Below, one piece after another: positions 19,718 to 31,099 of a stretch of 35,195 bases of DNA; position 1 is the first letter of the stretch, and every line of letters starts with the position of its first letter. The position numbers and the translations under genes are program-made. The stretch is taken from positions 13,457 to 48,651 of the IMG/VR virus record IMGVR_UViG_3300030060_003833, one strand, 5' to 3'. The notes under the pieces are model-generated. The model ran no database searches, was not told the origin of the DNA, and saw nothing but the letters and a program-made list of their open reading frames with translations. This DNA comes from a virus.

Positions 19718-22700
19718 ATGGAGGAAGAATTACTAGAAATAATGCGACCCTACATAGAGTCTGGCGAGTACGACAGAGATGAACTTGAAAATATTTTTCA
19801 AAAAGAATATCAAAAAGTACAACACAAGGCTAAGGTAGAGTATCAAGAAGAATATAATAAAATATACAAACAAGAGCTAGAAAAGCTTAATCCGCTAGAA
19901 AGGTTTGGTGTACAGTTAAGTAATGTTTTTGAAAAAAACGTTGAGATTGGTTTGCCAGTAGCATTTAAAAGTACACAAGTTTATTTAGGAGATTTAATAA
20001 ATAAAGTAGACCCTACCGGTGGTAAAGTAATGGACTTTATAGCTAGTGGAGGTGATGTTAATGAACTTGCTGATGATAATGATATTGGCGATGTTTACGA
20101 TGAGTTTTTGATAGAAAAACAAAATGAGTTATATAATTTAAGAGAAAAATCATCTAATTTATACACTGGTGAAGGTGTTATTGGTGGTTTTAAAGAAGGC
20201 GATGTTGTAGATATTGCTTCTGGTGTTGGTAACGCTGTAGTAAGCACTTTAACTACTGTTGTTCCAGCTTATTTTACTAGAGGGGCTAGTTTACCAGCTC
20301 AAATAATAGCGCCAATGTACACTGAGTTTAACGCAGAAAAAGCTAAATCGTTATATCCTGATGATGATTTTGAAACTCAAATGCGTAAGCTTTATGAAAA
20401 CGGTGAAGACAATATGACAATACCAACTGTTTTAGGTGTTGGTGCTACCGCTTTAGAATATGTAGGTGTTAAAGGTATAACTAATTCAATAATGAACCGA
20501 GCTCGTACCGCTGGTGCTAAAAGGTTTGTACAGTATTTAAGGACTGGTAATAGAGAGGGTGCTACAGAATTTTTTCAGTATGGTATAGAAAACTTAAATA
20601 AATCATTAGCACAAGGAAATGACTACCAAACCGCTGTAGAAGAAAGCGTAAAATCTATGTTTTCTCAAGAAGGATTTGAGAGTTTTGTACAAGGTTTTAT
20701 TGGTGGTACTATCGTATCAGGTGCTGGTAGAGAAACAAACCTAGCTTTTAGAGATGACAATGATAATATAAGAATAAATGAATATATAAACAATATAGGT
20801 GATTTACAGCAAGAAAAGTTAAAAGCGCACACTCCAGAAACTAAAAGTTTTATTGACGAAGAAATAAAAAAGCAAGAAAAAGAGTTTAAAGATTACGTTA
20901 AAAGTGTTAGGAAAAAATCTACATATATAACAGAACAAGAAGGTAATGACATAATTCAAGCTTATGAAAACAAAAAATCTTATGCGTCACAAATAGAAGG
21001 CTTGAAAAGCCAGTTAGATAAAAAAATAATAACTGAAAAACAATATAGCTACGCTACGCAACGTTTAAACGAAAATATAAAATTAGAAAACGAAAAAGTT
21101 AATTTTATTAAAAACGAAGCTAATAAAAAAATGCTTAACGATGATGTTAGAACTTTTGTTGAGCCACTTAGTAGAACTAACGGCTTAAATATAAATGTTG
21201 TTTCTCAAGAGTCAGATTTTTTAACACAAGTTAACCAAAGATTAGAAGCGTTAGGTAAAAAACAATACACAGCAGAGCAGTTGCAAAATGTTGACGGTTT
21301 AATATTAGGTAAAGATATTTTAATAAATGAAACTGTTGCTGCTAGAAACAATGCCGTAACAACTGGTTCACACGAGGTTTTACATGCTATTGTTAGATCT
21401 TCACTTAGAGGTGAGACTGTAAGAACTATTACAGACAAAATTACAGGCGCTACTGTTGAAACTACTTTAACAAAAGAAGGTGAGCAGATATTAAGAGATT
21501 TTAAAGATAGTTTAACTGACAAAGAATTAAGCGTTGTACAGGAAAGAATAGACAATAACTATAGATATAACGAAGATGGTAGTGAAAAAGCTTTTGTAGA
21601 ATATGCTGAAGAATATATAACTGCTTACGGTGACGCTCAGTTAAAAGGTAATTTGCAAGACGGTATTATTACTAAGCTTAAAAACTTTTTTCAAAGATTA
21701 ATAAACGGTAAAAACACTGGATATAAAAATTTAAATTTTAAAACTGGTGATGATGTTAGGAACTTTTTAAAAGAATATGTTTCTGATAGAAAAAAAGGTA
21801 AGCTTAGAAACCAGTTTGTTGATATGATAGATGTTGGTTTAGCTGAACCAGGTGAAGTACAATTATCTAAAACTAGAGATTTAAATGACGAACAAAAAGA
21901 AGATTTAGTAAATAAATATGGTAAAAAGTTTACTTCTAAAGAAAAAACAGGTGGTGACACTATAAACTTTGAAGACTTAGGTGGTAATGCTTATTGGCAG
22001 GTATATGGTAAAGACGTTGCTGAATTAATACAAAAACAAGGTTTGTTAGATGGTCTTATATTAGCAAAGCCACATAAAGGTATTAGTGATAAAGACTTTT
22101 TAAATACAACTTACGCAGAATTATTACCGCACATAAAAAACTATAAACCAGAAAGAAAAAATCCAAACGGTCTTTTTGGGTGGATAAATCCACAAATAGG
22201 TAATAAGGCTACACAAGCTTTTAATGATTTAACAAAAGGTGAAATACAAGCGCCTACGGTTCCAGTTGGACAAACGACTAAAGAAGGTGATATAAAAGTA
22301 CAAGTAGCTGCAGAAAAAGACACTGCTTTAGAAGACTTTGAAAAAATGGACATGTCTCTTGATGCTCAAAGAAAAAGAGAGGCTGATAAAAACAAAAAAC
22401 AAAAAGTAAGAAAAAGTAAACTTAGAAAATCACTAGGTATTAAAGATGATAGTGATCTTTATAATACGATAAAAAACTCAGCAAGACTAAGTTTAATATT
22501 AGCTTATCAAAAAACAAGAGGCATAAAAGATAAAAAGCAAAGAGCAGAAAAAATAGCTGATATGATAGCTAGTGAGTATGCTGGTGAAATAAAAGGAGTA
22601 AGATCAGGTAAATACACAGAGTTATTTAAAAAAGTAAAAGACGTTTTAGGCGTTGAAAAAAATTATTTTAAAACACTAAAAGAAAATAAAGACGCAATAT

Positions 22701-25700
22701 TAGAAACTGTTTTTACTTCTGATCTTGTTAAACTAGAAAGAAAGGTTCCTGACAGTGAAAAAGTTTTAATTGAAAAAGTAAAAAAAGTAACTTCACAAGA
22801 AGAAGGTTTAAGGCTAGTTAAACAAAACTTACTACCTAAAGAAGACTTGAAAAAGCTTCAAGAAGGAAAGAGCGTTTTTCAATACAACAGAAAACAAACT
22901 ACTCCAGATCAATGGATAGGTTTTTTTGATAAACCGTTAAAAATACAAAGAACAGACGAAAAAACAGGTGAAACTTTTGAAGTTAGATCTGGTTTAAAAG
23001 GCACAAGAAAAGATGGTATATCAAAGTACATATCAAAAGGTTTAGTGTTTGATGCTTTGTTAGAGGTTAGACAAGAGCCAGAAGTTAAAAAATTATTAAC
23101 CGAAGAGTTTGAAGCAGAACTTGATATAGTTGATTTAGCCGCTAAAATAGATAGAGATATTGATGTACAGCTTTCTAAAAGCTATTATAACTCTCAACTT
23201 CAATTAACAGAGTTACAATATCGTAAAAAACCTTTAGCCGCGTTACAAGGTAAAATACAAGAAATAGAAAAACGTATACAAAACAATGAAGACGTTGATG
23301 AGTCAGAGTTGTACATGTATAACAACGGTATACTACAGGATATGCAAGCTGCTTTTGAAAATGATTTGCCACCAAAAGTGGTTTATGATATTATAATACG
23401 AAAGCTACCGCCTACAAGAGAGTCGCTTACAGCGGATTTTAGTAGTTTAGAAAACTTTGTTAGATTTATTAAGAATACAACAATGCCTCAAGTTAGAAAA
23501 ATAGGTTTTGAAGTTTCTAAAAAATATTTACAACAGTTAACTGAAAACACAAATGACACTGAAAAAGTTAGAATAATAAATGAATACTTAAAAAATATAG
23601 GTAGATCAACTAGAAGTGGTATGATTGATGGTCTTACTACTAATAGAATATTTATAGAAAGAGTATTAAAACCTTTGTTTGGTGATGAGGTTGATGGTTT
23701 TGTTAACAAAAACTATCAATTACAAAAGGTTAAAGATGGTGAGATAATTGTTTATAATCAAGATGGTAACTTTGTACCAGTGCCTATGTATGAAAACATA
23801 GAGAATATTAAAAACAATGTTAGAGATAATCAAGATTTAGCCAATTTAGTAAACGAGCAAGCTGTTGATGCTAGAACATATTTACAAAATATATTAGACT
23901 CTAATTTAAGTACGGCTGAAAAATTAGCTATAGTAGATTTAATGTCTCTTGATCAAAGAGGTACTATAAGAAAAATGTATAAGTTAGGTGTAAAAATTAA
24001 CAAAGACTCTAATTTACCACCAGGTACACCAACCTTAACATCAAAAGACTTAGTATTAGAACATGAGATAACTGTGTCTGATATGGTTAATCAAATACAA
24101 AATACTATTAAAGGTAAATCAAGTCAAGCTGAATTAAATCAATATATTGAATCAGCTTATGTACATGTATTACCTAAAGAAATAGATGTTGTTTTAAATA
24201 AAGCTGGTTTAAAGTTTAAAGGTGGCCGTACAAGATATACTTACAACGCTGATGTTGTTAACTTTTTTGCTGAGCAATACGAGCGGGGAGTTATAGAGTC
24301 TTTACCTGAAAATTTATTTACTGCTTTTAATAATCAAAATTTAGAAGAAGCTCATTTATTTTCAAAGTCTGTTAATAATCCAAACAAAGGTATTACTATA
24401 CTAGACTTTGATGATACTTTAGCTACAACAAAATCTTTAGTCAGATATACAAAACCAGACGGTACTACTGGTACTTTAACACCAGAGCAATACGCTAGTA
24501 CTTACGAAAGTTTGTTAGGACTTGGTTACAAGTTTGATTTTTCTGAGTTTAATAAAGTTGTTGATGGTAAACCAGCTCCTTTATTAAACAAAGCTAAGAA
24601 GCTTGCTAGTAAGTTTGGTACTAAAGACATGTTTATATTAACAGCTAGACCTCAAGCATCTGCTCCTGCAATAAAAAGATTTTTAAAAGAAAATGGTTTA
24701 GATATACCATTAAAAAACATAACAGGTCTTGGTAACTCAACAGCTGATGCTAAAGCATCTTGGGTTTTAAACAAAGCCAAAGAAGGTTATAATGATTTTT
24801 ATTTTGCTGATGACGCAATACAAAATGTAGAAGCTGTACAAAATATGTTAAACCAGTTTGATGTTAAATCAAAAGTACAACAAGCTAGAGTTGATTTTAG
24901 TAAAAGTAAAATGAGTAATTATTTTAACGCTATATTAAGAGATGTTTCTGGTGTTGATCGTTTAAAAATATTTAGTGCTGCAGAAGCAGCCAAAAAAGGT
25001 GAGACTAAGGGTCAGTTTAGATTTTTTATACCGCCTAACCATGAAGATTTTAGAGGTTTATTATACAACTTTATGGGTAAAGGTGAAAGAGGTAATAGAC
25101 ACATGAGGTTTTTTGAAACAACATTATTAAAACCTTTAAATGAAGCTTATAGACGTTTAAATAATCATAGGCAGTCTATATCAGTTAATTATAAAGCACT
25201 AAGAAAAAGGATGCCTGATACGGTAAGTATATTAAATAAAAACTTACCTAATAGTAGTTTTACTTTTGAAGATGCCGTAAGGGTTTATTTGTTTAACAAA
25301 GCTGGTTTTAAAATACCTGGGTTAGACAGCAATCAACAAGTTGCACTTATAAACGTTGTAAATTCTCAAGCTAGTTTAAAACAGTACGCTGATATGATAA
25401 GTAAAATATCTACTGTTAAACAAGGTTATGTAAAACCTACAGAAAACTGGCAAGTTGGTAGTATAAGACTTGATTTATTAGATGCTACAAACAGAGTTGG
25501 TAGAAAAAAGTTTTTTAATGAGTTTATAGAAAACTCTAACATTATATTTTCAAGAGATAATTTAAACAAAATAGAAGCTATATACGGTAGAGATTTTAGG
25601 TTAGCATTAGAAGATGTATTAGAAGCTACCATAACAGGTAATAACAGGCCTATTAGTCAAAACAAAGCTGTTAATAGATGGTTAGACTGGGTTAATGGTT

Positions 25701-27196
25701 CTGTAGCCGCAACAATGTTCTTCAACGCAAGATCAGCTATACTACAGCAGTTATCTTTTGTTAACTTTTTAAACTTTGGTGATAACAATATATTTAAAGC
25801 TTCAGCTAGGTTTGCAGATCAAGGACAGTTTTGGAGTGATTTTTCTAAGTTGTTTAACTCTAACTTTTTAAAACAAAGACGTTCTGGTGCTGCTTTTGAT
25901 GTTAATGCTAACGAAATAGCTACAGAAGTCGCTAAACCTAAAACAATGTCTGGTAAAGTTAGAGCTGCATTAAAACATTTATTAGATTTAGGTTTTTTAC
26001 CTACGCAGCTTGGTGATAGTTTTGCTATAGCAATTGGTGGTGCTAGTTTTTATAGAAACAGAATTAATTCATACATAAAAGACGGTTTAAGTAAAAAAGA
26101 AGCAGAATCAAAAGCTTTTTTAGATTTTCAAACTGTAGCAGAAGAAACACAGCAGTCAGCTAGACCTGATATGGTTTCGCAGTTACAACGTTCTATACTT
26201 GGTAGATGGATATTTGCTTTTCAAAATGTAACATCACAATATGCTAGAATAGTTAAAAAATCTTATTCTGATTTAACAAATAGAAGAATATCAAAAGGTT
26301 ACAAAGATCAAGGAGCTAGTGACACCGCTAATATATCTAGAATAATATATTATGGTGCTGCTCAAAGTATTATATTCTATGGTTTGCAGCAAGCTATATT
26401 TGCTGCTATGTTTGAAGACGACGAAGAAGAAGACAAGAAAAATGAAAAATTCTTTAAAACAAAAAAAGATAGAATTTTATATGGCACTATAGACAGTTTG
26501 TTAAGAGGTTCTGGTTTACCTGGTGCTGTAATTTCTACATTAATGAATTACACTAGAAAACGTGTTGAAAATGCTAAAAGTGACTCTTGGTTTAAAACAC
26601 CTGCTTGGCCAGAGTTATTACAAATAGCTCCACCTATAGGTATAAAGGTTAGAAAACTAACTAGTAGTGAAAATACTGAAAAGTGGAATAAAGAAGTTAT
26701 GAAGTATATGAGCAAGTGGGACATAGATAATCCACTGTGGGACGCTGTAAGTAGTGGTGTTGAAGGTCTTACTAATGTACCTATTAACAGACTTTATAGA
26801 AAAGTACAAAACTTAAAAGCTGCTTTTGACAGTGAAAACGCTTGGTGGCAAAGAGTAGCTGTTGGTTTAGGTTGGAGCAGGTGGGATGTTGGTATTGAAA
26901 ATAAAGAAGTAGAAAAAATTAAACAAATAGTAAAATCACCTAAGTTCAAAAACAGTGACGAAATAAAAGAAAATATTAAACTACGTGAAGAAGATGGTAT
27001 TTGCGCAGCTATAAGTAGAAGTGGTAATAGGTGTAAAAACAAAGCTTTGCCAGGTAAAAACTTTTGCACAATACATGATGAAGTTGAACAAAGTGAATCT
27101 GGTGAGCAAAAACAATGTAAAGGTAGAAGAACTAATGGTCAAAGATGTAAAATGATGACTACTTCTAAAAGCGGTTATTGCTACTATCATGATTAA
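19718..27196 (+). CDS. Giant polyvalent internal virion protein (zincin-like, HAD-like, Cys3His knuckles)
   Basis: This 2492-residue protein is modular, like the polyvalent proteins that phages eject with their DNA. Residues 160-335 are Gly/Ala-rich and partly hydrophobic. HEVLH at 552-556, with FVEYAEE at 626-632, is a zincin-type metalloprotease signature. Residues 715-1150 are charged helices. Residues 1552-1724 are a complete HAD-type domain: DFDDTL 1563-1568, ILTAR with Thr1642, Lys1679, and FADD with Asp1698/1699. [LF]SK[ST] motifs at 716-719, 1152-1155, 1548-1551 and 1727-1730 fall at module edges. A hydrophobic segment spans about 2206-2232, then an acidic loop. The C terminus has two Cys-x9-Cys-x10-Cys-x2-His knuckles (2429-2453, 2467-2491). 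Likely work: cross the envelope at infection and deliver enzymes. Chemistry of each module is inferred. It starts 3 bases after the previous stop. Confidence 0.7.
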   Translation: MEEELLEIMRPYIESGEYDRDELENIFQKEYQKVQHKAKVEYQEEYNKIYKQELEKLNPLERFGVQLSNVFEKNVEIGLPVAFKSTQVYLGDLINKVDPTGGKVMDFIASGGDVNELADDNDIGDVYDEFLIEKQNELYNLREKSSNLYTGEGVIGGFKEGDVVDIASGVGNAVVSTLTTVVPAYFTRGASLPAQIIAPMYTEFNAEKAKSLYPDDDFETQMRKLYENGEDNMTIPTVLGVGATALEYVGVKGITNSIMNRARTAGAKRFVQYLRTGNREGATEFFQYGIENLNKSLAQGNDYQTAVEESVKSMFSQEGFESFVQGFIGGTIVSGAGRETNLAFRDDNDNIRINEYINNIGDLQQEKLKAHTPETKSFIDEEIKKQEKEFKDYVKSVRKKSTYITEQEGNDIIQAYENKKSYASQIEGLKSQLDKKIITEKQYSYATQRLNENIKLENEKVNFIKNEANKKMLNDDVRTFVEPLSRTNGLNINVVSQESDFLTQVNQRLEALGKKQYTAEQLQNVDGLILGKDILINETVAARNNAVTTGSHEVLHAIVRSSLRGETVRTITDKITGATVETTLTKEGEQILRDFKDSLTDKELSVVQERIDNNYRYNEDGSEKAFVEYAEEYITAYGDAQLKGNLQDGIITKLKNFFQRLINGKNTGYKNLNFKTGDDVRNFLKEYVSDRKKGKLRNQFVDMIDVGLAEPGEVQLSKTRDLNDEQKEDLVNKYGKKFTSKEKTGGDTINFEDLGGNAYWQVYGKDVAELIQKQGLLDGLILAKPHKGISDKDFLNTTYAELLPHIKNYKPERKNPNGLFGWINPQIGNKATQAFNDLTKGEIQAPTVPVGQTTKEGDIKVQVAAEKDTALEDFEKMDMSLDAQRKREADKNKKQKVRKSKLRKSLGIKDDSDLYNTIKNSARLSLILAYQKTRGIKDKKQRAEKIADMIASEYAGEIKGVRSGKYTELFKKVKDVLGVEKNYFKTLKENKDAILETVFTSDLVKLERKVPDSEKVLIEKVKKVTSQEEGLRLVKQNLLPKEDLKKLQEGKSVFQYNRKQTTPDQWIGFFDKPLKIQRTDEKTGETFEVRSGLKGTRKDGISKYISKGLVFDALLEVRQEPEVKKLLTEEFEAELDIVDLAAKIDRDIDVQLSKSYYNSQLQLTELQYRKKPLAALQGKIQEIEKRIQNNEDVDESELYMYNNGILQDMQAAFENDLPPKVVYDIIIRKLPPTRESLTADFSSLENFVRFIKNTTMPQVRKIGFEVSKKYLQQLTENTNDTEKVRIINEYLKNIGRSTRSGMIDGLTTNRIFIERVLKPLFGDEVDGFVNKNYQLQKVKDGEIIVYNQDGNFVPVPMYENIENIKNNVRDNQDLANLVNEQAVDARTYLQNILDSNLSTAEKLAIVDLMSLDQRGTIRKMYKLGVKINKDSNLPPGTPTLTSKDLVLEHEITVSDMVNQIQNTIKGKSSQAELNQYIESAYVHVLPKEIDVVLNKAGLKFKGGRTRYTYNADVVNFFAEQYERGVIESLPENLFTAFNNQNLEEAHLFSKSVNNPNKGITILDFDDTLATTKSLVRYTKPDGTTGTLTPEQYASTYESLLGLGYKFDFSEFNKVVDGKPAPLLNKAKKLASKFGTKDMFILTARPQASAPAIKRFLKENGLDIPLKNITGLGNSTADAKASWVLNKAKEGYNDFYFADDAIQNVEAVQNMLNQFDVKSKVQQARVDFSKSKMSNYFNAILRDVSGVDRLKIFSAAEAAKKGETKGQFRFFIPPNHEDFRGLLYNFMGKGERGNRHMRFFETTLLKPLNEAYRRLNNHRQSISVNYKALRKRMPDTVSILNKNLPNSSFTFEDAVRVYLFNKAGFKIPGLDSNQQVALINVVNSQASLKQYADMISKISTVKQGYVKPTENWQVGSIRLDLLDATNRVGRKKFFNEFIENSNIIFSRDNLNKIEAIYGRDFRLALEDVLEATITGNNRPISQNKAVNRWLDWVNGSVAATMFFNARSAILQQLSFVNFLNFGDNNIFKASARFADQGQFWSDFSKLFNSNFLKQRRSGAAFDVNANEIATEVAKPKTMSGKVRAALKHLLDLGFLPTQLGDSFAIAIGGASFYRNRINSYIKDGLSKKEAESKAFLDFQTVAEETQQSARPDMVSQLQRSILGRWIFAFQNVTSQYARIVKKSYSDLTNRRISKGYKDQGASDTANISRIIYYGAAQSIIFYGLQQAIFAAMFEDDEEEDKKNEKFFKTKKDRILYGTIDSLLRGSGLPGAVISTLMNYTRKRVENAKSDSWFKTPAWPELLQIAPPIGIKVRKLTSSENTEKWNKEVMKYMSKWDIDNPLWDAVSSGVEGLTNVPINRLYRKVQNLKAAFDSENAWWQRVAVGLGWSRWDVGIENKEVEKIKQIVKSPKFKNSDEIKENIKLREEDGICAAISRSGNRCKNKALPGKNFCTIHDEVEQSESGEQKQCKGRRTNGQRCKMMTTSKSGYCYYHD

Positions 27197-27243: not shown

Positions 27244-27522
27244 ATGGCCAAACAATTAAATGAAGATACTAGCTTTAAAATAAGCATAAAAACTTTAGGT
27301 GGTATAGCTGCTTTAATAGCTACTCTAGTAGGTATGTGGTTTACTTTGCAAGCCGATATTGCAGAAGCAAAAGAATTACCAGAACCATTACCACCAGATG
27401 TTACGCGTATGGAGTTTGATATGAAAGATCAAATGATAAGACAAACTATTATGACCACGCAAGAAGATGTTCAAGAAATTAAAAAGTCTATTGAAAAAAT
27501 AGAAGAAAAACTTTACGAATAA
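27244..27522 (+). CDS. Small membrane protein, candidate holin
   Basis: This 92-residue protein has a short charged N terminus, one strong transmembrane segment (about 17-36, GGIAALIATLVGMWFTLQ), a Pro-rich acidic hinge (LPEPLPPD) and a C-terminal coiled coil (about 58-90). Its size, single anchor and position after the structural genes suit a holin or an envelope-anchored spanin-like partner. An M15 peptidase gene lies 6 kb downstream. Holins vary too much for a firm call; a membrane anchor for the following thioredoxin-fold protein is an alternative. Its stop overlaps the next start (TAATG), so the two are co-translated. A 47-base A/T-rich gap with no recognisable promoter precedes it. Confidence 0.5.
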   Translation: MAKQLNEDTSFKISIKTLGGIAALIATLVGMWFTLQADIAEAKELPEPLPPDVTRMEFDMKDQMIRQTIMTTQEDVQEIKKSIEKIEEKLYE

Positions 27523-27893
27523 TGAAAGAACAAGATATTAAATGGCCTCAATATATTATCTATACATTAATAATAGTTTTTATGTTAACAGCTCAACTAG
27601 CGTCTTGTCAAAATATTTGTAAAACTGATATATGTGTAGTAGAATTTAACGCTGAATGGAACAAAGCTAATAGTATTGACTGGTTAAACAAACTTAATGA
27701 TTGTGGTGTAAAAAGAATAAATATAGATAAAGGTGACTGGGCTAAAAAATACAATATAGTTGTAGTACCTACAATTATAGTTTTTAATGGTGAAGAAGTA
27801 AAACGCTATCAAGCAGATCTTAGTTTTACCATGTCAGCCACAAGAAAAGAAGTGCAAAATACTATTGATGAAATTATAATGAGCGATTTTTAA
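27522..27893 (+). CDS. Thioredoxin-fold lipoprotein-like protein lacking the CxxC site
   Basis: This 123-residue protein has an N-terminal hydrophobic stretch (11-25) ending in a lipobox-like LASC (Cys29), so it is probably exported and lipid-anchored. The rest follows the thioredoxin pattern: VVEFNAEW strand, helix, INIDKGDWAKKYNIVVVPT with the cis-Pro at 83, then the IIVFNGEEVKRYQ hairpin and a C-terminal helix. Where thioredoxins have WCGPC, this protein has WNKAN (46-50), so both catalytic cysteines are Asn. Redox chemistry at that site is therefore impossible; Cys33, Cys38 and Cys61 remain. Non-catalytic thioredoxin folds usually act in binding or chaperoning. It overlaps the upstream membrane protein by one base and sits one base before the repeat protein. 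Confidence 0.65.
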   Translation: MKEQDIKWPQYIIYTLIIVFMLTAQLASCQNICKTDICVVEFNAEWNKANSIDWLNKLNDCGVKRINIDKGDWAKKYNIVVVPTIIVFNGEEVKRYQADLSFTMSATRKEVQNTIDEIIMSDF

Positions 27894-27894
27894 A

Positions 27895-29808
27895 ATGAAA
27901 AAACTACTTTACATATTTATATTTTTATTTTCAATTAACACAGTACACTCACAATGCCCACCTAGTACTTGGAGTTTAAACGTTACTATAAATCCAGATC
28001 AATATCCAGAAGAAACATCTTGGTACATAATGAATTTTTTTGGTGACACGCTTATGTACGGTGGACCTTATACTAACATAATAGATTATGAACCACAATA
28101 TGCTGGTGCTTGTGCACCTATAGATAGCTTTTACATTGTTATAAACGATTTATATGGAGATGGTGTAGCAGGTAGTTTGTGGGGTGGTAACGATGGTTCT
28201 GTATATATAGAACAGTGTGGTGACACTATATGGGAGTTGCCTGTTGCTGATTTTGGTTATCAAATATATGACACAATTTATACTTCTGGTTGTCCACCTC
28301 CACCACCTGTATTTGGCTGTATGGATATTAACTATGTAGAGTTTAATCCAGCAGCTACATTAGATACAGGTATGTGTTTAACACTTAAAATATATGGTTG
28401 TACTGACTCATTAGCTTATAACTACTTAGATAGCGCTAATACAGACATAGATATAGACAGTTGTTTACACGAGCTAGAGTTAACAGATTTAGCTGGTAAT
28501 GGTTGGGCTGGTTCTAGCTTAAAGTTATCACAAGCAACAAGTTTAGTACCACCTTTTAACTATCAAGATATAGGCACGTACACTTTGATAGATGGTTTTG
28601 ATACAACATTTTTTATAAATTTATTAGCAGGTTATCCTGTTAGAGCTATTTTTGAAATAACACAACAGTCTGATTTTACAGCTGTACAATGTGGATATAG
28701 CTTATATTCAGAAGATTATGTAGCTATAGATATTGAAGGTGGTTTTGTAAATCCTATACCGCCGTTTTTCCCTGTAACAGGCCAGCCTTATTGTGGTAAC
28801 ACTTGTATAGAAAAAATATTTGGTTGTACTGATAGTTTAGCTATTAATCACGACACATTAGCAAACACAGATGATAGTACTTGTTATTATAATCCTGGCT
28901 GTATGAATCCTATTTATTTAGAGTATGACACGCTTGCTGATTTTGATGATGGTAGCTGTGCCACGTTAGTAGTACTTGGCTGCATGGACTCAACAGCTTT
29001 TAATTATAATCCTGATGCTAATCTTGAAATACAGGGCTCTTGTATACCAGTTGTAACCGGATGCATGGAAAGTCTTGCGCTAAATTTTAACCCGCTTGCT
29101 AATACGCCCGACACGTGTATAGCATATATTTACGGATGTACTGATAGCACAATGTTTAACTATGATAGTTTAGCAAATACTGATGATGGTAGTTGTCAAC
29201 CTTTTGTTTATGGTTGTATGGACTCAACAATGTTTAATTTTAATCCACTTGCTAATGCTGAAGACAATAATAATCCTTGCGTTCCTTATATATATGGCTG
29301 TACTGATCCGAGTATGTTTAACTACCAAGTTAACGCTAACACAGAAGATTTCAGCTGCATACCATTTATTTATGGGTGCACTGATAGTACTGCTATTAAT
29401 TACGACTCACTTGCTAATACTGATAATAACTCTTGTGTTGAGGTTGTTATCGGGTGTATGGATCAAGACGCTTGGAATTATAATATTGCCGCTAACGTTT
29501 ACGATACCTTGGCATGCTTGTATGCGGCGGATTGTATAACAGGTCCTGGTAACCCATATTGGTTAAACGATCCTTGTTATGCTTGGGTGATAGAAGTAGA
29601 TGACTATTGCTGTGAAAATGAGTGGGATAATACATGTCAATTAACTTATGATTATTGCGAAGGCACTTGGGTTGGACCAATACCAAAGCGTATTGCTAAT
29701 TTAGTTTCTGTAACAGATTTATTAGGTAGGCCAAGTAAAATAATTAAGAATAAATTATTGTTGTTTATATATGACGATGGAAGTGTTAAAAAGAAATTTA
29801 TAAGATGA
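27895..29808 (+). CDS. Secreted GCTDS-repeat protein with T9SS-like C-terminal domain
   Basis: This 637-residue protein has a signal peptide (MKKLLYIFIFLFSINTVHS, cut before Gln20). Two domains with a D-GDG/GNGWAG turn follow (about 20-130 and 190-300), typical of flavobacterial secreted proteins. Eleven short Cys repeats begin with GC(T/M)(D/N/E) at residues 141, 168, 310, 335, 362, 389, 414, 440, 468, 494 and 520; the consensus is GCTDS-x-NYDSLANTDDGSC. These repeats are common in marine Flavobacteriia surface proteins and may bind Ca2+ through the Asp-rich ends (inference). The end (about 605-637: VTDLLGRPSKIIKN, FIYDDGSVKKKFIR) matches the type A T9SS sorting-domain style. It would be displayed on or released from the infected cell. 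ATGA overlap couples it to the next gene. Confidence 0.75.
   Translation: MKKLLYIFIFLFSINTVHSQCPPSTWSLNVTINPDQYPEETSWYIMNFFGDTLMYGGPYTNIIDYEPQYAGACAPIDSFYIVINDLYGDGVAGSLWGGNDGSVYIEQCGDTIWELPVADFGYQIYDTIYTSGCPPPPPVFGCMDINYVEFNPAATLDTGMCLTLKIYGCTDSLAYNYLDSANTDIDIDSCLHELELTDLAGNGWAGSSLKLSQATSLVPPFNYQDIGTYTLIDGFDTTFFINLLAGYPVRAIFEITQQSDFTAVQCGYSLYSEDYVAIDIEGGFVNPIPPFFPVTGQPYCGNTCIEKIFGCTDSLAINHDTLANTDDSTCYYNPGCMNPIYLEYDTLADFDDGSCATLVVLGCMDSTAFNYNPDANLEIQGSCIPVVTGCMESLALNFNPLANTPDTCIAYIYGCTDSTMFNYDSLANTDDGSCQPFVYGCMDSTMFNFNPLANAEDNNNPCVPYIYGCTDPSMFNYQVNANTEDFSCIPFIYGCTDSTAINYDSLANTDNNSCVEVVIGCMDQDAWNYNIAANVYDTLACLYAADCITGPGNPYWLNDPCYAWVIEVDDYCCENEWDNTCQLTYDYCEGTWVGPIPKRIANLVSVTDLLGRPSKIIKNKLLLFIYDDGSVKKKFIR
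28315..29529 (+). repeat. Eleven GC(T/M)D coding repeats inside the secreted protein
   Basis: Eleven in-frame units of roughly 75-85 bases start at 28315, 28396, 28822, 28897, 28978, 29059, 29134, 29212, 29296, 29374 and 29452. They are similar at the protein level (Gly-Cys-Thr/Met-Asp-Ser ... Asn-Tyr/Phe ... Ala-Asn-Thr-Asp-Asp ... Cys) but diverged in codons. A 426-base non-repeat domain separates units 2 and 3. Such arrays change copy number by recombination. Confidence 0.85.
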
Positions 29809-30053
29809 GTTTTAAAATGAATAGTTGGAGTGGATATCAAAATTCGCCTATAAAAAAAGATATAAAAGTGTACGAGGGCAGTGGTAAACAAATAATACTT
29901 GATGATAGTAATTTAGGTAAAGAATATTTTGACGAGTATGGTAATAAAGCTAGAGATCATAAAAAAACTAAAGACGTGTTTTATATAAAACCACCAAGAT
30001 TTAAAGGCCCAAGAGAACCAAAAATGCCTATTACAAAATATCCCGTAGCATGA
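29805..30053 (+). CDS. Small basic SPxK-tag protein
   Basis: This 82-residue protein overlaps the preceding stop (ATGA) and is overlapped at its own stop by the next start. It begins MSFKMNSWSGYQNSPIKK. The protein at 32292 begins MSFVMPGWSGFISSPAKA, with SPxK at exactly residues 14-17 in both. The remainder is Lys/Asp-rich and likely poorly ordered, with a few aromatic-basic patches (DVFYIKPPRFKGPREP). It is lysine-rich, has no signal peptide and no known domain. The shared N terminus suggests a targeting or packaging tag (inference). The start at 29805 is chosen because the MSF prefix matches the paralogue. Confidence 0.6.
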   Translation: MSFKMNSWSGYQNSPIKKDIKVYEGSGKQIILDDSNLGKEYFDEYGNKARDHKKTKDVFYIKPPRFKGPREPKMPITKYPVA

Positions 30054-31099
30054 AAAAAATATTATTAATAATAATAGTTATTTTATTTTCTTGCGCAGCG
30101 CCTAAAAAGTGTTGTGGACAAAATAATATAAAAGATATATTTAAGTTTTCTACATTTTACACAGCTGTTAACGGTGGAACATCTATATCAGATGTCGAAA
30201 CTTATAGTGTTACAGATGGTTTAAGTATAGAAACTGTAAAAACACCTTACGATTATAATTTAACTTTAGGTGTACGTAAAATAGCTAGATTTGGTTATGA
30301 AAACAGAGCTAATACATTTTATGATGGTACTGAGTCTAATTATAGTGATGGTGCCACTATAGGTAAAAGAGACGGTGTAGAATTTTTATTTCAAGTAGAT
30401 TACAGAAGACAAGAAGGTGTTGAGTATTTAGATCAACATCATTTTATAAGATATGTTGACAGCGCTTGGTTAGCTAAAGCCGAGTATTTAAAAGATGGTT
30501 TTGCCGATGTAGAGTATTTTGAAACTTCACAAAGGTATAGATATAGTATAGGTAAATTTAGTTTTAATATTGGCGCCGCTCAACGTTTGTCAGAACCATA
30601 CGGTTACGATCCGCTAGAACAATGGATCTTGGATAATGGTAATTTACATTACACTTACTTAGCAATACAAGAAGGTTACACTGTCGACGTTTATAATAGT
30701 GAGTATAAAGATCCAAGCGGGGCAACCGTAGCTAATAGCTCTGAAGTTTGGAAAGAAGTAGTTATACCACAAGTATTAGCTAACTACACTGATAAAAAAA
30801 GAAATGAACTAGACAGAATTATACAACACTCTTTAGTTTTAGGTTTTGATTATTACTACTATAATAAAAGTTTTTGGATTCATAGTTGGGCTAACTTAAT
30901 GCCTTATCATTATGATGATGGTGGTGAGTTTAACTATCATAACTACGTAGATGGTCAATGGTATGATTACTCCGGTGGTTTAATATTTGGACAAAAAATA
31001 AATAAACAGCTAGGTATATTTGTTGAGGGTAAATATAACAAATATTGGAACAGAGAGTGGTACGACTTTAAAACAGGTATTAATTATATAATAAGATAA
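30050..31099 (+). CDS. Exported outer-membrane beta-barrel-like protein
   Basis: This 349-residue protein has a strong N-terminal signal (MKKILLIIIVILFSCAAPKK). Cleavage could be at a lipobox Cys15 or by signal peptidase I before Gln24. The mature part is full of alternating aromatic/polar strands (YNLTLGVRKIARFGYENRAN, VEFLFQVDYRRQEGVEYL, SLVLGFDYYYYNKSFWIHSW, DYSGGLIFGQKINKQLGIFV) and ends in a strand (YDFKTGINYIIR), as in outer-membrane barrels. I recall close relatives in marine phage sequences, with no function assigned. It would sit in the infected cell's outer membrane, perhaps for receptor masking, superinfection exclusion or release. ATGA and TAATG overlaps tie it to both neighbours. 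Confidence 0.6.
   Translation: MKKILLIIIVILFSCAAPKKCCGQNNIKDIFKFSTFYTAVNGGTSISDVETYSVTDGLSIETVKTPYDYNLTLGVRKIARFGYENRANTFYDGTESNYSDGATIGKRDGVEFLFQVDYRRQEGVEYLDQHHFIRYVDSAWLAKAEYLKDGFADVEYFETSQRYRYSIGKFSFNIGAAQRLSEPYGYDPLEQWILDNGNLHYTYLAIQEGYTVDVYNSEYKDPSGATVANSSEVWKEVVIPQVLANYTDKKRNELDRIIQHSLVLGFDYYYYNKSFWIHSWANLMPYHYDDGGEFNYHNYVDGQWYDYSGGLIFGQKINKQLGIFVEGKYNKYWNREWYDFKTGINYIIR

Follow-up and report, generated by a model that had tools for sequence, protein, structure and literature searches.

The window (the whole 35,195-nucleotide stretch of viral DNA that was analysed) carries a phage gene that, judged from its sequence and its relatives, probably encodes a late, Sec-exported protein whose short C-terminal tail engages the type IX secretion system (T9SS) of the host, with an adhesive passenger being displayed or released and the cell surface changed as a result (Table 1). 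In the mechanism that we propose, the phage protein would be secreted and is probably produced late in infection. Its Sec signal peptide would carry it into the periplasm of a Bacteroidota host, a step for which the sequence argues strongly. The tail would act as a minimal T9SS signal, perhaps keeping only the equivalents of motifs D and E of the type A domain, and would engage the host T9SS (SprA/PorV) for crossing of the outer membrane, as predicted from the exchange of tails in phages and hosts and from the co-occurrence of SprA. The passenger, in which a Cys-repeat stalk bears an exchangeable adhesive head at the N-terminus (beta-sandwich or MAM), might then be displayed on the infected cell or released from it. 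An earlier note on this DNA had already named the protein as a T9SS substrate; tail exchange and tail distribution support that proposal well, but the model match suggested for it fails for the focal sequence.

Table 1. Positions of the focal gene, its parts and its neighbours in the window
Feature	Position	Strand	Basis or remark
Predicted phage-encoded T9SS substrate, 637 aa	27895..29808	+	ATG start; at least 75 relatives in viral contigs
Sec signal peptide, residues 1-19	27895..27951	+	Predicted cut before Gln20; sequence, relatives
N-terminal part, residues about 24-297	27964..28785	+	AlphaFold2; Pfam MAM in relatives
Nine consecutive Cys repeats, GCxDxxAxNYxxxANxDDxSC, residues 310-550	28822..29544	+	Sequence; low pLDDT
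Conserved CYAWVIxVDxYCCxxxWDxxC segment, residues 561-592	29575..29670	+	Invariant columns in alignments A1 and A4
Putative short C-terminal sorting tail, about residues 602-637, VTDLLGRPxxxxKNKLLxFIYDDGxVxKKFIR	29698..29805	+	Sequence comparison; AlphaFold2
Neighbour c4, 92-aa protein with one hydrophobic segment, conserved in module	27244..27522	+	PHROG matches weak only
Neighbour c2, predicted exported thioredoxin-like protein	27522..27893	+	TIGR01068 2e-4, below cut-off
82-aa ORF between focal gene and barrel gene	29805..30053	+	4-nt overlaps on both sides
Neighbour c3, 349-aa predicted exported outer-membrane beta-barrel	30050..31099	+	AlphaFold2 pLDDT 72.9, pTM 0.68

The signal peptide that the earlier note had reported is present, reading MKKLLYIFIFLFSINTVHS and followed by Q. 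Of the relatives, 67 have a complete 5' end, and all 67 likewise begin with a signal-peptide-like stretch that stops before Q, as judged with a corrected pattern in place of a strict one that missed short signal peptides and gave 26/67. The GC[MTI][DEN] repeats number exactly eleven, with a spacing of mostly 25-28 aa (about 26 residues in the nine consecutive ones), and the first two (141 and 168) lie between two predicted beta-sandwich domains, residues 25-130 and 190-297 (AlphaFold2, pLDDT mostly 70-87). The protein contains 35 Cys residues, and its acidic and basic residues number 80 and 16, respectively. The short tail, VSVTDLLGRPSKIIKNKLLLFIYDDGSVKKKFIR, is conserved in 54 short-tail relatives and is predicted to form three strands (AlphaFold2, pLDDT about 80). 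For the protein as a whole, the AlphaFold model is of low quality (pLDDT 51.5), and only the N-terminal domains and the tail reach useful confidence; a fold search with this model returned generic beta-sandwich matches only (Z < 7), and no model in Pfam, NCBIfam or PHROGs matched the focal protein.

MAM is an extracellular adhesion domain, and 13/50 relatives of the focal gene match it in Pfam. Because of this domain in the relatives, the Cys-rich stalk and the secretion tail, the focal protein reads as a displayed or released adhesin, the role being assigned from domain type. Speculatively, the likeliest benefit would be a change to the outside of infected cells or of their debris, through a block to further adsorption or the binding of cells or particles, a possibility to which we give somewhat less than an even chance. 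Candidate roles of this kind include superinfection exclusion, cell aggregation, receptor masking and the binding of debris or virions. A narrower form of T9SS export, in which the protein serves superinfection exclusion specifically, by coating the receptor, is rather doubtful. In its favour, surface localisation is predicted and the adhesive heads vary (MAM or beta-sandwich), but expression seems to be late, when exclusion would be less useful.

The earlier note had also described a terminal domain of T9SS type A style and suggested that it be searched against TIGR04183-type sorting-domain models. This search was run, and the tail of the focal protein did not match the type A models TIGR04183 and PF18962, remaining below every threshold; nor did the focal protein give an NCBIfam match to type B or type C T9SS models (limit E 10). 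Formally, the type A description does not apply, because neither NCBIfam nor Pfam has a model that the tail matches. A canonical type A domain stands at the same place in 20 of at least 75 relatives, and 16 of the 50 members scanned match both TIGR04183 and PF18962 above the curated cut-off, which is the number of canonical-tail proteins among them. One relative, L003, is 77% identical overall to the focal protein, yet has a canonical tail past W592. The passenger is conserved up to this Trp592, and the tail changes immediately thereafter, past the conserved CYAWVIxVDxYCCxxxWDxxC segment (alignments A1 and A4).

Exactly one tail scored above threshold in 22/22 phage records (15 short, 7 canonical and never both); these records had been chosen for the focal gene or its barrel neighbour, so that the presence of a tail was expected, but mutual exclusivity was not built in. 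At least 10 changes of tail type were counted on the tree of the neighbouring barrel, where branches with strong support require at least 5 of them; the passenger tree has 13. All of the short-tail ORFs in the best viral loci (79/79) belong to the focal family. When the tails alone were compared as profiles (hhalign), short and canonical forms gave a probability of 5.6%, which lies within column-shuffled controls. A first comparison, with a 99% probability, was rejected, since its signal came from two misfiled rows and from GPxPxR, a segment before the tail that both forms share; the tails alone were not significant. A search of the tail sequence against solved structures likewise gave no credible match. 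The equivalence of the short and canonical tails is argued from exchange, position and distribution, homology not being demonstrable by profile comparison.

The short tail also occurs in bacteria. Scanning the genomes of bacteria and archaea with it yielded 528 confirmed stretches, and the best 80 of these (76 loci) all carry titles of Flavobacteriales or other Bacteroidota, sampling with the full model being limited to this phylum. At these best-match loci, the tail lies no more than 3 aa from the stop codon in 74/76 bacterial proteins, and 66 of the 72 complete bacterial short-tail ORFs have a signal peptide. Their passengers include M43 peptidase, GH18, GH16, CotH, Omp28, Kelch and lamin-tail proteins, among others. 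Within one order, 43 of 147 genomes carry the short tail, in up to 49 copies each. SprA was found in 42/43 tail-bearing and 79/104 tail-less genomes of this order (Fisher p = 8e-4), an association that is supportive rather than decisive, since many SprA-less genomes are small and probably belong to reduced symbionts that have neither. TIGR04183 proteins were present in 14/14 tail-bearing genomes tested. Among loci L079-L154, small Flavobacteriales genomes contain as many as 49 proteins with the short tail, which would escape recognition as T9SS cargo by current T9SS models.

Depending on the species, homologues of one CotH protein end in the short tail (69-82% identity) or in a canonical type A domain. 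The canonical-tail homologue L170 is 47% identical over residues 1-630, and the other canonical ones are more distant. Since CotH homologues carry either tail, exchange between the short and canonical tails occurs in hosts as well.

The type A domain (TIGR04183/PF18962), like the focal tail, stands at the C-terminus of Sec-exported proteins, and it fills the same slot in close relatives of the focal protein; both tails end in a Lys-rich strand. The short tail differs in having about 35 residues instead of about 70 and in lacking the PNP motif and most strands. The alternative T9SS C-terminal signals, type C (ChiA, NF033708) and type B (SprB), are unlike type A in sequence, and both of these known classes, unlike the short tail, require some 100 residues or more (review PMC10202324). 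A signal as short as this is biochemically plausible because GFP can be exported with just the last 22 residues of HBP35, which comprise motifs D and E, the lysines of motif E being important (review PMC10202324). The short tail might instead direct proteins, from their C-terminus, into some undescribed route of export or anchoring other than T9SS, as would fit the lack of detectable homology to the canonical domain and of any model match. We consider this improbable: the same passengers carry either tail in phages and in hosts, SprA co-occurs in all but one of the tail-bearing genomes, the enzyme classes with the short tail are known T9SS cargo classes, and terminal Lys residues are common to it and the known signal.

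The focal gene is represented by at least 75 related loci in viral contigs. Three types of neighbour (c4, the thioredoxin-like c2 and a barrel of ~350 aa) are kept near it in most of 76 loci, and the focal gene, with a tail that can be recognised, is present in 15/15 barrel loci whose 10-kb flanks are complete. Its dN/dS against close relatives is 0.05-0.11, and by these comparisons the gene is under purifying selection. Given the conserved neighbours, the conserved signal peptide and this dN/dS, an assembly artefact or a decaying capture is not its origin. It looks, from its relatives, like a core gene of a large phage group rather than a recent host capture. The suggested origin by capture from a host agrees in a general way with the modular domains, but the gene is now a conserved core gene, part of a recurring cassette and subject to purifying selection. 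That the gene is a moron, taken recently from a host, of benefit to the host surface and without a part in phage growth, is as improbable as the undescribed export route. The host-like modular domains and the Cys-repeat homologues found in 14/14 host genomes tested would agree with such an origin, but the position near the same neighbours, the linkage to the phage barrel and the strength of selection do not, and no full-length host orthologue of the focal protein was found among 14 genomes. Two related genomes, MW202828 and one Flavobacterium elemo phage, carry neither tail type.

The late operon setting described in the earlier note was confirmed, with tightly coupled genes lying 3' of terminase, portal and virion genes. 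Overlaps or abutments of 1-4 nt join the genes around the focal ORF (27522, 27895, 29805, 30050 and 31099), and the terminase, portal and virion genes are upstream of its cluster. Promoter and terminator scans remained at chance level. Further upstream, a giant 2492-aa protein (ORF 19718-27196) has at its C-terminus (26970-27193) two Cys-His zinc-finger-like motifs, CxxxxxxGxxCxxxxxxxxxxCxxH. The portal shares 54% identity with that of MW202828 and about 42% with the portals of Flavobacterium elemo phages; Cellulophaga phages also match. On this comparison the phage is podovirus-like and related to Cellulophaga and Flavobacterium phages, and because the portal relatives are flavobacterial phages, its host is very probably a member of Bacteroidota. 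The single-cell virus record AG-345-P14, a Cys-repeat match considered as a hint to the host, was discarded when it proved to be a cyanophage-type virus.

In the neighbour c2, the active-site CXXC is replaced by WN..N, with CXXC in 0/64 relatives and WN in 64/64. The c3 barrel resembles porin-type and translocator barrels (Foldseek, VIA-align) and was assigned to no family; no PorV or SprF relatives were among its listed matches. It has no Pfam family and more than 500 relatives in viral contigs, and is linked to the focal gene. The annotated phage collection searched held no record with the focal protein or the c3 barrel. It might be imagined that these genes form a dedicated surface-display module, combining an adhesin with a minimal T9SS signal, the phage barrel as its cognate shuttle or anchor, and a cysteine-less exported thioredoxin-like protein, but we regard this as unlikely. 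PorV and PorP/SprF serve host substrates in the way proposed for the phage barrel; what is shown here is the linkage and the barrel fold, and no family relation to PorV or SprF was found among the matches listed.

The eleven Cys repeats had been called flavobacterial in the earlier note. Their number is right, but they are not specific to flavobacteria, since the same repeats occur in a virion structural protein of cyanophage S-CAM3, which has neither signal peptide nor tail. Other large upstream ORFs of the same phage group (in L234, L221, L233, L064 and L241) also bear Cys repeats without the tail, and without a signal peptide where the start is visible; these are probably virion proteins. 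The repeats are no evidence for secretion, because phage virion proteins use them too. Least probable of all is that the focal protein is a virion fibre or appendage, with a signal peptide and tail that are incidental or have a part in building the virion: its place in a late structural gene cluster and its Cys repeats are shared with such proteins, but these lack both signal peptide and tail, the focal tail swaps with a genuine T9SS domain, the related elemo phage and MW202828 have no such tail, and the retention of the signal peptide in all relatives with complete starts disfavours a fibre assembled in the cytoplasm.

Phage-encoded T9SS cargo is already known; the literature searched yielded no description of the minimal tail or of repeated exchange of tails. 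Cryophage encodes T9SS type A cargo proteins that vary between phage variants (Bellas et al. 2020, PMC7468147). That cargo consists of enzymes or a PA14 protein in one phage, whereas the present case concerns one orthologous adhesin-like gene in a large group and, unlike the Cryophage cargo, exchangeable tails of two types. Similarly, in gut phages, crAss-BACON ORFs near structural genes carry a T9SS sorting domain (PMC6949934), but their passenger, made of BACON domains, differs from that of the focal protein. The motif strings of the short tail were absent from the literature searched, a weak negative as subscription papers were mostly outside the search.

The natural exchange of two tails on one passenger provides a ready-made test of the residues that the T9SS needs. 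If the proposed reading is true, the short tail would add a small class of T9SS signal that is not yet listed, and for some Flavobacteriales dozens of secreted proteins in each genome would go unrecognised in current annotation. A large phage group would then use the host T9SS as a core part of its life cycle, a use previously mentioned only in passing and for few phages.
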